Origin: Bacteroidia bacterium
Lineage (GTDB): Bacteria > Bacteroidota > Bacteroidia > B-17B0 > Aurantibacillaceae
Direction: 5' to 3'
Length of the DNA: 64,000 nt
Assembly: GCA_018000995.1 (NCBI GenBank)
Contig: JAGNIU010000001.1
Coordinates: forward strand, 124,001-188,000
In this document: positions 2,336 through 53,172 of the stretch, one piece after another
How the letters are laid out: each line of letters starts with the position of its first letter
Numbering within the stretch: position 1 is the stretch's first letter
Program-made: the position numbers and the translations under genes
The notes under the pieces: model-generated
Databases searched by the model: none
Seen by the model: only the letters and a program-made list of their open reading frames with translations
Told to the model about the DNA's origin: nothing

Positions 2336-2803
2336 TTAATTCAGCAAAAAAATAGAAATGTTTAATACAGTTGCAAAACTTACCCAGAGCAAATAGGGCA
2401 CTTGTAGTAAAGATGCTGTTTTATGTATAGGATAATAGACATAGATCATGTAAGCAATACTTAGCCACATAGCAATAATTTCTATTGCTGCGAAACCGGG
2501 CTGTTGCCATGAAAAGAAAATAATACTCCAGAAAAAATTGAGAACTAATTGGGTTATAAAAACAAAAACCACTTTCTTTCTTTCATCCTTTCGGCTGGCT
2601 TGATACACTAAATAAAATGAAATTCCCATTAAAATATATAGCGTCGTCCAAACCGGTCCAAATAAATAATTCGGCGGATTGAATGAGGGTTTGTTTAAAG
2701 TTGAATACCACAAGGGGATATTTTTAGCTGTAAAAAAACCTGATAATCCACCAACAGCTAGCGGAATTAAAATAAACAAAACTAATTTTAGATAATTTTT
2801 CAT
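2336..2803 (-). CDS. tspO: TspO/MBR family tryptophan-rich sensory protein
   Basis: An integral membrane protein of 155 residues with five predicted helices, the normal size for TspO. Diagnostic stretches are the N-terminal GGLSGFFT, the loop WYSTLNKPSFNPPNYLFGPVW and the following LYILMGISFYLVY. TspO proteins bind porphyrins and tetrapyrroles, and bacterial members have been tied to light, oxygen or tetrapyrrole signalling. Its ATG overlaps the stop of the SRPBCC gene (ATGA), so the two are translationally coupled. They share a divergent control region with folE and the B12-type regulator. That context fits a tetrapyrrole- or light-related role; the role itself is inference. Confidence 0.9.
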   Translation of the reverse strand: MKNYLKLVLFILIPLAVGGLSGFFTAKNIPLWYSTLNKPSFNPPNYLFGPVWTTLYILMGISFYLVYQASRKDERKKVVFVFITQLVLNFFWSIIFFSWQQPGFAAIEIIAMWLSIAYMIYVYYPIHKTASLLQVPYLLWVSFATVLNISIFLLN

Positions 2804-3261
2804 TGGTTAAATAGTTGTTCTAGTTTTTTAAATCTATACGCGAAAATGTCTTCCAGTTGTTTTTTCACAAACAAAGCATTCATTACTTTGCCTAAAAATC
2901 CAAATGGCAATTTGTAATGTACAACATCTATCATTTCAACACCTCCATCAACTTCTTTAATAAAATGTTTATGATGCCAGAAGCTGTATGGCCCTACTCT
3001 TTGTTCGTCAATAAAAAAAGATTTATTTACCACAGCCTTAATTTCAGTTACCCAATGTAGCTTAATATTAAAGACGGGCGATATGGTGTATTCAATTATT
3101 TGTCCTGAATACATAGTATTTAAATCCTCCGCCTCCGAAAGAATTTTAAAATCCATTTTATCAGGTGTTATTGCGCTCAGGTTTTTAGGCGAGCTAATGA
3201 AATTCCAAACGGTTTCAAGATCACTCTTTATGAATTGCTTGGTTTTTAGGGTGTGTAGCAT
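2800..3261 (-). CDS. SRPBCC family (START-like) protein
   Basis: A small soluble protein of 153 residues with the SRPBCC beginning TLKTKQFIKSDLETVWNFIS and a later VGPYSFWHHKHFIKEVDGGVEMID segment. This subgroup of ligand-binding or cyclase-like proteins is often listed as a cell-division inhibitor or SRPBCC-like. No signal peptide is present, so it should be cytoplasmic. It is the first gene of the leftward operon SRPBCC-tspO and faces folE across about 166 bases. SRPBCC genes are often found beside light-responsive LitR/CarH regulators. The ligand is not predictable. Confidence 0.78.
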   Translation of the reverse strand: MLHTLKTKQFIKSDLETVWNFISSPKNLSAITPDKMDFKILSEAEDLNTMYSGQIIEYTISPVFNIKLHWVTEIKAVVNKSFFIDEQRVGPYSFWHHKHFIKEVDGGVEMIDVVHYKLPFGFLGKVMNALFVKKQLEDIFAYRFKKLEQLFNQ

Positions 3262-3301: not shown

Positions 3302-3376
3302 CAAAGTACGTTAAAATATGTTTGTTTAACAAATTTATCTAAAAGTTAAACAAAATAAATCTACCTTTGTTTAGCA
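3302..3376. promoter_or_regulatory. Divergent promoter region with three TTTGTTTAAC-like motifs
   Basis: The gap between the SRPBCC gene and folE holds TTTGTTTAAC at 3321-3330, its reverse complement GTTAAACAAA at 3345-3354, and TTTGTTTAGC at 3366-3375. Copy 1 sits in a near-palindrome, GTTTGTTTAACAAAT. A rightward -7 element TACCTTTG (3362-3369) overlaps copy 3. A leftward one, TAAATTTG (3337-3330), abuts copy 1. A second leftward candidate, GTACTTTG, lies at 3309-3302. Repeated motifs over both -7 elements suggest an operator through which one regulator could control both operons. The CarH-like protein at 4612 is the obvious candidate. The motif match is visible; the binding is inference. 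Confidence 0.5.
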
Positions 3377-3427
3377 AATTTCCAATTAATCGGATGTTTG
3401 GCACCAGAACAACTAAAGAGAAACATT

Positions 3428-4147
3428 ATGAAACAGAAAGAAATCACATTAAACACCCTTCTGAACGGGAACAAAATTATGCTAAGTCAATTTAGTCATG
3501 ATGAAATAGGTGACGAACACATTAGTACGGGAATAGAAACACCCATGAAGAAAAATGCCTTTGATATTAGTGACGACGAAAAGATTTCAAAAATTGAATA
3601 TCATTTTAGGGAAATCATGGAAACGCTTGGGCTTGATTTAAATGATGATAGCTTAAAAGGTACACCTCACCGTGTAGCAAAAATGTATATCAAAGAGTTA
3701 TTTAATGGTTTAGATCCTGCTAACAAACCAAAGATTGCTTTGTTTGATAATAAATATCAATACAATGAAATGTTGGTTGAAAAAGGAATTAGTTTTTATA
3801 GCAACTGCGAACATCACTTTGTGCCAATTTTCGGAAAAGCGCACGTTGCCTACATTTCTTCAGGAAAAGTAATCGGCTTATCTAAACTAAATCGTATAGT
3901 AAATTATTTTGCAAAACGACCACAGGTACAAGAACGATTAACCATACAAATTGCTAAAGAATTACAAGCGTGTTTAGGAACTGAAGATGTTGCAGTATTA
4001 ATAGATGCCAAACATTTATGTGTTTCGTCACGCGGCATTAAAGATGAGAGTTCAGCAACTGTAAGTTCGTTTTACGGTGGCAAATTTAAAGAAGATCAAA
4101 CGCGGCATGAGTTTTTGAAATATATTAACTTAAAAACTAACTACTAA
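3428..4147 (+). CDS. folE: GTP cyclohydrolase I
   Basis: Converts GTP to 7,8-dihydroneopterin triphosphate, the first step to folate and pterins. The catalytic half carries both zinc-site regions, SNCEHHFVPIFGKAHVAY and HLCVSSRG, plus GLSKLNRIV and RPQVQERL, all hallmarks of type I enzymes. The frame is open from a TTG at 3398, but the ATG at 3428 is preferred because an AAAGAG ribosome-binding sequence precedes it; this gives 239 residues. The last base of its stop codon is the A of the next gene's ATG. Placement beside SRPBCC, DUF2452 and a B12-type MerR regulator resembles light-induced folE loci of other bacteria, where pterins may serve photolyase or cryptochrome cofactors. Confidence 0.93.
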   Translation: MKQKEITLNTLLNGNKIMLSQFSHDEIGDEHISTGIETPMKKNAFDISDDEKISKIEYHFREIMETLGLDLNDDSLKGTPHRVAKMYIKELFNGLDPANKPKIALFDNKYQYNEMLVEKGISFYSNCEHHFVPIFGKAHVAYISSGKVIGLSKLNRIVNYFAKRPQVQERLTIQIAKELQACLGTEDVAVLIDAKHLCVSSRGIKDESSATVSSFYGGKFKEDQTRHEFLKYINLKTNY

Positions 4148-4563
4148 TGATCAATCCAATTGATATCGATAAGGTAGCCGAAAACCCGGGCTTGATTGCA
4201 TATCCGCACACTATTGGAAGCATAGCGTTCAGACCTGAAGATGTAGGTAAAATAAAAACCCGTGCGTACTCTGCCATGCGGGAACAAACTGATATGCACT
4301 TACGTCAAATTCAAAAACAAGTTACGCTTCTTCTTGATCAAGCTAACGAAATAAAAAGAAGGATGGAAGTAAGTGAAAAAATATATTCGGCAAGTATTTC
4401 GTTTGAACCTTTTGTTGGCAACATCTATCATCTTTATAAAAGAGATAATATGCATAAATTAATGCTTATTAGTCCGGATGAATGGGGCAAATCAAAACCA
4501 TTGGATTTAGAATACGTTTGTACTGCTAAACTTTTAAGTGACCATACCTGGGAAGTCCTTTAG
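4147..4563 (+). CDS. DUF2452 domain protein
   Basis: A soluble protein of 138 residues recognised as DUF2452 from its opening DIDKVAENPGLIAYPHTIGS and the following PEDVGKIKTRAYSAM. There is a helical middle segment and a C-terminal part resembling a small beta domain (GNIYHLYKRDN, MLISPDEWG). No enzyme motif is evident. Its ATG shares a base with the stop of folE, so the two are almost certainly made from one transcript. The biochemical function is unknown; the pairing with folE suggests a pterin or light-response connection. Confidence 0.8.
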   Translation: MINPIDIDKVAENPGLIAYPHTIGSIAFRPEDVGKIKTRAYSAMREQTDMHLRQIQKQVTLLLDQANEIKRRMEVSEKIYSASISFEPFVGNIYHLYKRDNMHKLMLISPDEWGKSKPLDLEYVCTAKLLSDHTWEVL

Positions 4564-4611: not shown

Positions 4612-5493
4612 ATGAAACTTTATCAAATTGCAGAATTAGAGCAACTCACCGGAATAAAGGCACACACCCTTCGTATTTGGGAAAAAAGATATGGCTTAAT
4701 TGAACCTACCAGAACCTCCACCAATATTAGAAGGTATGACGATGATCAAGTAAAGAAATTACTGAATGTTGCTACCCTATTGGGAAGCGGCTATAAAATT
4801 TCAAAGATTGCAGAGCTGAATGAAAAAGAAGTTTCTGCCATAATAAATTCTCTACAACAAGGTGATTCCATAAACTCCATTAGTGAAGGTTTTATTAACC
4901 AGCTTTTATCAGCCATGATTGGATTTAATGAACAAGCCTTTGAAAAGGCTTATTCAGCAGCAGTTAATAAATTAGGGCTTTTTGATGCTATGCTGAATGT
5001 GTTTTATCCGCTATTTCATAAAATTGGCGTGATGTGGGTAACAGATAATCTCACGCCTGTTCAGGAACACTTTGCCTCTTGTATCATTAAGCGAAAATTA
5101 ATGGCAGCTATCGATGCCCTGCCTATTCCAACTAAAAAGAAAACCTTTCTACTACTTTTGCCGCCGGGAGAATATCACGATGTTAGTCTTTTACTTGCTA
5201 ATTATCTTGTTAAATCAAAGGGATATCACGCCATATACCTAGGACAAAACGTTCCTTACGAAAATATTGATTCGGTTTTAATAGAAACTAAAGCCCAATT
5301 TTTGCTTATGTTTTATGTAAACCCCCGCGATGCTAAAGAAGTTTATGAGGAGATTACAGAACATATTTTCTTACCAAAGGATGTGAAATTTTTAGTAAGT
5401 GGTAACCGACAAATTATGGCTTATCTCGACGAGAAAAAAAATTGCAAAGTTTTGCATTCGCCCCAAGACCTTTTGAAAATATTAGACGCCTAA
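4612..5493 (+). CDS. MerR-family regulator with B12-binding domain (CarH/LitR-like photoreceptor)
   Basis: A regulator of 293 residues. Residues 1-70 form a MerR winged helix (YQIAELEQLTGIKAHTLRIW, then RRYDDDQ). Residues 95-170 form the four-helix B12 cap with the W-x9-EH motif complete: Trp142, Glu152, His153. Residues 175-290 form the Rossmann cobalamin domain with GEYHDVS. There His189 sits where CarH has its lower axial ligand, and Ser192 replaces the usual Gly of ExHxxG. In CarH, adenosylcobalamin drives a DNA-binding tetramer that light breaks. Conservation of these residues argues this protein also binds B12. It ends the folE operon, 48 bases after DUF2452, and its stop overlaps the mfd stop. 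Light sensing is inference. Confidence 0.85.
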   Translation: MKLYQIAELEQLTGIKAHTLRIWEKRYGLIEPTRTSTNIRRYDDDQVKKLLNVATLLGSGYKISKIAELNEKEVSAIINSLQQGDSINSISEGFINQLLSAMIGFNEQAFEKAYSAAVNKLGLFDAMLNVFYPLFHKIGVMWVTDNLTPVQEHFASCIIKRKLMAAIDALPIPTKKKTFLLLLPPGEYHDVSLLLANYLVKSKGYHAIYLGQNVPYENIDSVLIETKAQFLLMFYVNPRDAKEVYEEITEHIFLPKDVKFLVSGNRQIMAYLDEKKNCKVLHSPQDLLKILDA

Positions 5494-53139: not shown

Positions 53140-53172
53140 GTTTGTTTAACAAACTAAGACTTTTGATCAAAA
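53140..53172. repeat. Two palindromes between operons
   Basis: A 15-base palindrome, GTTTGTTTAACAAAC (7-1-7), is followed 6 bases later by TTTTGATCAAAA (12 of 12). They sit just after the methyltransferase stop. The first is 14 of 15 identical to bases 3320-3334 in the folE control region. It might be a weak terminator, but no long T run follows. Confidence 0.6.

Follow-up and report, generated by a model that had tools for sequence, protein, structure and literature searches.

How vitamin B12 mediates light regulation is understood from work on Thermus, Bacillus and the myxobacteria. The Bacteroidota, a major phylum, include many aquatic bacteria that carry pigments. The CarH proteins of Thermus thermophilus (PDB 5C8D/5C8E) and Bacillus megaterium are adenosylcobalamin (AdoCbl) photoreceptor repressors that combine a MerR domain with a cobalamin-binding domain. 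The T. thermophilus protein binds three tandem 11-bp repeats and the B. megaterium protein four, and the published half-site consensus is nAnnTnnACAn (PMC8156234, PMC9304148). The CarH operators studied so far are either such tandem direct repeats or plastic versions of them. The P-crt operator of Myxococcus xanthus, which serves CarA and CarH, spans about 55 bp, overlaps its promoter, and has inverted repeats plus degenerate direct repeats; its repressor binds in more than one unit. The class II LitR proteins of Pseudomonas (PplR/PmlR) work with LOV photoreceptors and are not AdoCbl light sensors; their regulons include folE, photolyase, cryptochrome and short-chain dehydrogenase genes (PMC9758184). 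In the open-access literature that we searched, no Bacteroidota CarH operator was found, and one may have been published elsewhere.

The locus described here lies in a 64,000-nucleotide stretch of an Aurantibacillaceae genome (contig JAGNIU010000001.1, positions 124,001 to 188,000), referred to below as the window. Two operons diverge from a gap of 166 bp, bounded by the start of the SRPBCC gene at 3261 (minus strand) and that of folE at 3428. The leftward operon begins with a gene for a SRPBCC/polyketide-cyclase-like protein (2800–3261, minus strand; PF03364, below cut-off), followed by tspO, encoding a tryptophan-rich sensory protein (2336–2803, minus strand; PF03073, 1.5e-52). The rightward operon, on the plus strand, contains folE for GTP cyclohydrolase I (3428–4147), a DUF2452 gene (4147–4563; PF10504), and the gene of a B12-binding MerR regulator of CarH/LitR type (4612–5493), the proposed repressor of both operons and of itself. 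Within the gap, positions 3321–3354 form a predicted operator of 34 bp, TTTGTTTAAC-N14-GTTAAACAAA, a perfect inverted repeat. We hold with good confidence that this is the operator of the regulator at 4612–5493 and that the regulator is a CarH-type dark repressor of both divergent operons, its own gene included.

The regulator, a protein of 293 aa, shares the architecture of T. thermophilus and B. megaterium CarH, with an N-terminal MerR domain (PF13411/PF00376) and a cobalamin-binding domain (PF02607). Its best curated model, NCBIfam CarH (NF052513), scores 104 bits against a cut-off of 400 bits, so the protein is a distant CarH relative and not an equivalog. T. thermophilus CarH is the closest solved protein both by sequence and by fold, and the best Foldseek match of the AlphaFold model (mean pLDDT 86) is CarH 5C8E at an E value of 2.8e-15. 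The residues W142 and E152-H153 (Wx9EH) and E187-x-H189 (the ExH motif with the axial histidine) align with those of T. thermophilus CarH. W142, E152, H153 and H189 are invariant in an alignment of 25 relatives; in a broader alignment of 17 sequences, W142 is present in 16 and the remaining residues are invariant. From its sequence and by analogy with CarH, we infer that the regulator depends on AdoCbl and is released by light. It is the only match in its own genome.

The two arms of the predicted operator, TTTGTTTAAC at 3321–3330 (plus strand) and its exact reverse complement at 3345–3354 (minus strand), are 100% matched across a 14-nt gap, with half-site centres 21 bp apart. Arm 1 can be extended to the pseudo-palindrome TTTGTTTAACAAA (3321–3333). 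With one mismatch allowed, the 10-mer occurs 32 times in the window versus 24.8 ± 4.9 times in shuffles. Loose copies are common in this A+T-rich window, so a single motif proves nothing, and since the single-copy counts are not significant, spacing and conservation were examined instead. In the whole 3.6-Mb genome, there is one exact copy of the 34-bp element, against about 5e-5 chance occurrences expected for its 20 specified bases, and this copy is also the sole intergenic near-exact one. The arrangement of the two arms is not chance. Two other sites were dismissed as chance matches: an exact 10-mer at 53141, which directly follows a stop codon and has no partner arm at the right distance, and a second near-match elsewhere in the genome (C64:197274), which lies within an open reading frame.

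The arms use the CarH half-site. Arm 2, read as AAGTTAAACAA (3343–3353, plus strand), fits nAnnTnnACAn, and the mirror of arm 1, TTGTTAAACAA, fits the shorter TnnACA core. The arrangement is unlike CarH in that the half-sites are inverted with centres 21 bp apart, whereas CarH has tandem 11-bp direct repeats, and there is no TnnACA in the central slot of the window's element. Since the tandem arrangement is missing though the CarH half-site is used, we regard the element as a variant of the CarH operator. In other respects, the system resembles T. thermophilus and B. megaterium CarH. The Wx9EH motif and axial histidine are kept, promoter elements are overlapped, the footprint of 34 bp predicted from sequence is near the 3 x 11 bp of CarH, and the regulator gene lies among genes of light-protection type. 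The M. xanthus P-crt operator resembles the window's in its inverted repeats and promoter overlap; it differs in being larger and variable in sequence among species (PMC9304148), with no fixed 34-bp unit.

The element recurs beside relatives of the regulator. In 29 loci of the family picked by the regulator protein, an element with the same arm offset adjoins most. Two sets of loci were chosen by the regulator protein only, and these allow the cleanest comparison. Among the 56 loci of one set, there are 52 half-site pairs at the offset of the 34-bp element versus a mean of 0.8 at other offsets, and 38 of the loci have such a pair. The other set comprises 80 named Bacteroidota loci, including Algoriphagus, Pontibacter, Roseivirga, Dyadobacter, Adhaeribacter, Chitinophagaceae, Bacteroidales and others; it has 65 pairs at the element's offset versus 0.9 at other offsets, with the pair present in 54 loci. 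Poisson values for such counts take no account of relatedness and were set aside. A matrix trained on the loci of the window's family reaches the threshold of 10 bits in 78% of 107 other loci versus at most 0.2% of shuffled flanks, which served as the control. Across the operators, G4 (C31 on the other arm) is near-invariant, and the centre is not conserved beyond A/T. The comparison of orthologous loci proposed with the original prediction therefore shows that the motif is kept, in sequence and in exact spacing, across the Bacteroidota. Because the identical spacing recurs beside relatives of the regulator throughout the phylum, this 34-bp mirror-image site is very probably the switch occupied by the B12 light-sensing regulator.

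The element also follows the presence of the regulator. Allowing one mismatch at most, we counted it in 296 genomes from the class, of which 198 have a clear regulator and 98 do not. It is found in 149 of the 198 and in 11 of the 98; the matches number 289 and 12, respectively, while a reversed control pattern gives 25 and 4. Because 49 of the 198 regulator genomes are without a near-exact site, some lineages would have a diverged operator or none. One of the 11 regulator-free genomes with a match was inspected (G020, L092), and its match lies inside a gene. Relatedness inflates such cross-genome counts, so contrasts within a genus are more telling. In the window's own genus, the element is present in 4/4 genomes with the regulator versus 0/4 without. 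In the largest genus of the family, it is present in 31/31 versus 2/9, and both exceptions are matches within genes. Conservation and the tracking of regulator presence together support the suggestion that the motif is the Bacteroidota operator of this photoreceptor family. Association of a site with a regulator gene is not, on sequence evidence of this kind, equivalent to binding.

The -7 box of Bacteroidota sigma-A promoters is TAnnTTTG, at -12 to -5 (PMC9723704). On the plus strand, TACCTTTG (3362–3369) matches this box as the -7 element of the folE-DUF2452-merR operon. With this element, folE transcription would begin near 3374, and the operator would span about -53 to -20, reaching the folE -33 region. 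A TAnnTTTG-like box at the folE-type offset accompanies 21 operators. On the minus strand, TAAATTTG (3330–3337) is a candidate -7 element of the SRPBCC-tspO operon that abuts arm 1, and a box of this type is found at the same position within other operators. Relatives retain a second leftward candidate as well, a TTTG lying 19 bp past the operator, which leaves the leftward start site uncertain. When 153 operators are compared, TAnnTTTG is concentrated at a few positions around them, in the commonest of which its TTTG falls inside an arm. The overlap or abutment of -7 elements described in the original prediction is thus seen both in the window and in the operators of relatives, and it supports the further suggestion of a layout expected for a repressor covering two promoters. 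Classical MerR proteins activate from a fixed 19-bp spacer. The several positions that overlap or flank promoters fit occlusion by a repressor and not classical MerR activation.

The motif had originally been seen as a three-copy operator, and all three copies are present, the third 10-mer at 3366–3375 reading TTTGTTTAGC. Arms 1 and 2 stand as one 34-bp inverted repeat; copy 3 is separate from it and not conserved. Extended to 3366–3381 (plus strand), copy 3 is a 15/16 direct repeat of 3321–3336, offset 45 bp downstream, an identity that is hard to get by chance. Its TTTG is the TTTG of the folE -7 element. A half-site is kept at this position in 3 of the 21 operators with matching promoter spacing, and copy 3 was rejected as an equal operator on that basis. 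Its remaining letters are mostly variable across comparable promoters, and the half-site is absent from the sister genome G057, which has TACCTTTGTATCAG there. In relatives, second operators often stand 41–45 or 62–64 bp further on. Because of the 15/16 match and this known tandem phase of +41 to +45, we keep copy 3 as possibly an auxiliary half-site, lineage-specific at most. In the window's lineage, and there only, it may extend occupancy cooperatively over the folE -7 box. Tandem operators at spacings of 41–45 or 62–64 bp are seen at loci L024, L026, L080, L083, L093, L133, L196, L200, L128, L132 and L219. These spacings are about two or three times 21 bp, which suggests cooperative phased binding.

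Elements in relatives precede merR itself, folE or PTPS-folE, SRPBCC, DUF2805-SDR and tspO, as well as crtI-crtB-hydroxylase-lycopene cyclase and ECF sigma-photolyase operons. These are genes of light-protection and pterin/folate functions. The light-induced gene sets of Pseudomonas resemble them (PMC9758184). The window's regulon, unlike that of CarH, consists of folE, DUF2452, SRPBCC and tspO without carotenoid genes. In the window's genome, crtB was not found, and carotenoid genes were dropped as targets there; an operator was looked for at that genome's photolyase gene and none was found. The regulon in this genome appears to be reduced to the two divergent operons. In many Bacteroidota, an ECF sigma gene stands immediately after the operator, with photolyase or crt genes following it (L050, L077, L080, L083, L088, L093, L096, L099, L103, L105 and many of L189–L238). 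This suggests a cascade from CarH to an ECF factor in these bacteria. In the window's genome, a search for that ECF gene gave distant relatives only and no close one.

For the present system, we infer DNA binding by the regulator, repression, a need for AdoCbl and a response to light, as follows. In the dark, the AdoCbl-bound regulator would occupy 3321–3354 and block RNA polymerase at both divergent sigma-A promoters. This would shut off SRPBCC-tspO to the left and folE-DUF2452-merR, the regulator's own operon, to the right. Light would break the Co-C bond of AdoCbl, the oligomer would fall apart, and both operons would be expressed together. MerR proteins can also activate. That possibility counts against the dark-repressor reading, as do the inverted rather than tandem sites, the 49 regulator genomes without a near-exact site, the 11 regulator-free genomes with a match, the absence of crtB and the photolyase gene without a site.

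An alternative reading accepts the element as the B12-MerR protein's operator and makes the protein something other than a B12/light dark repressor: a B12-independent regulator like CarA, a partner-driven one like class II LitR, or an activator. CarA and class II LitR are indeed relatives that do not use AdoCbl as a light sensor (PMC8156234, PMC9758184), and B12/light repressor activity of the window's protein is a prediction from its sequence. However, the Wx9EH motif and axial histidine, invariant among the 25 aligned relatives, argue for B12 use, and the window's regulator differs from class II LitR in keeping the B12 residues. The -7 boxes, overlapped or abutted at several offsets, suit repression better than activation from the fixed spacer of classical MerR proteins. 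We regard this reading as unlikely.

It is less probable still that the element belongs to another conserved regulator of the same regulon, such as an ECF sigma factor or a Crp/Fnr-type protein. The ECF genes directly behind the element in many relatives would suit that explanation, but the element also stands beside merR in loci with no neighbouring ECF gene, the window among them, and the window's own genome has just the distant ECF relatives. Sigma promoters, moreover, are not 34-bp inverted repeats, and the site's occurrence within genera follows that of the MerR gene. A last alternative is that the motif arises as an A+T-rich side effect where Bacteroidota -7 (TTTG) and -33 elements of divergent promoters overlap. 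In its favour, the motif's TTTG can double as that of TAnnTTTG, as happens in copy 3, whose other letters are mostly not conserved. For copies 1 and 2, that account is refuted by the fixed 24-bp arm offset, the exact symmetry, the near-invariant G4/C31, and the difference between genomes that have the regulator and those that do not; overall, we give it next to no probability.

Returning to the CarH-type repressor, we see an even chance that the Bacteroidota CarH group has a geometry of DNA recognition that is new for CarH. Its half-sites would face outward at a distance of two helical turns and would often belong to arrays with a step of about 21 bp, in which second copies follow at 41–45 and 62–64 bp. 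The AdoCbl-bound oligomer reading them would have its domains arranged differently, and a single code of this type would define a light regulon spanning the phylum. The inverted geometry raises the question of how a head-to-tail CarH assembly reads such a site. A 34-bp code readable from sequence would make the light regulon predictable in hundreds of genomes, and the recurring operator makes light control in the Bacteroidota directly testable. The element ties the unstudied genes DUF2452, SRPBCC, DUF2805 and tspO to a predicted light regulon and offers compact light-switchable promoters for the Bacteroidota.

Several genes near these operators deserve mention. Where relatives have this operon, the uncharacterised DUF2452 gene is usually flanked by folE and the B12-MerR gene. 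The window's genome has a second folE, 42% identical (G000:C2:16477-17043, L241), which makes the copy next to the operator a possible light-specific paralogue. At L082, L089 and L097, the element adjoins genes whose protein products start like a signal peptide (..QVIHNCADAAAATVDIYAG..) and have no evident role in light biology. Downstream of tspO and in the same direction, on the minus strand, are genes for a histidine kinase (1330–2295) and a periplasmic binding protein (192–1382). In the sister genome G057 (L031), a FecCD permease gene comes next, with BtuC as its best curated profile. The B12 photoreceptor operon may have a linked importer for cobalamin or siderophores.
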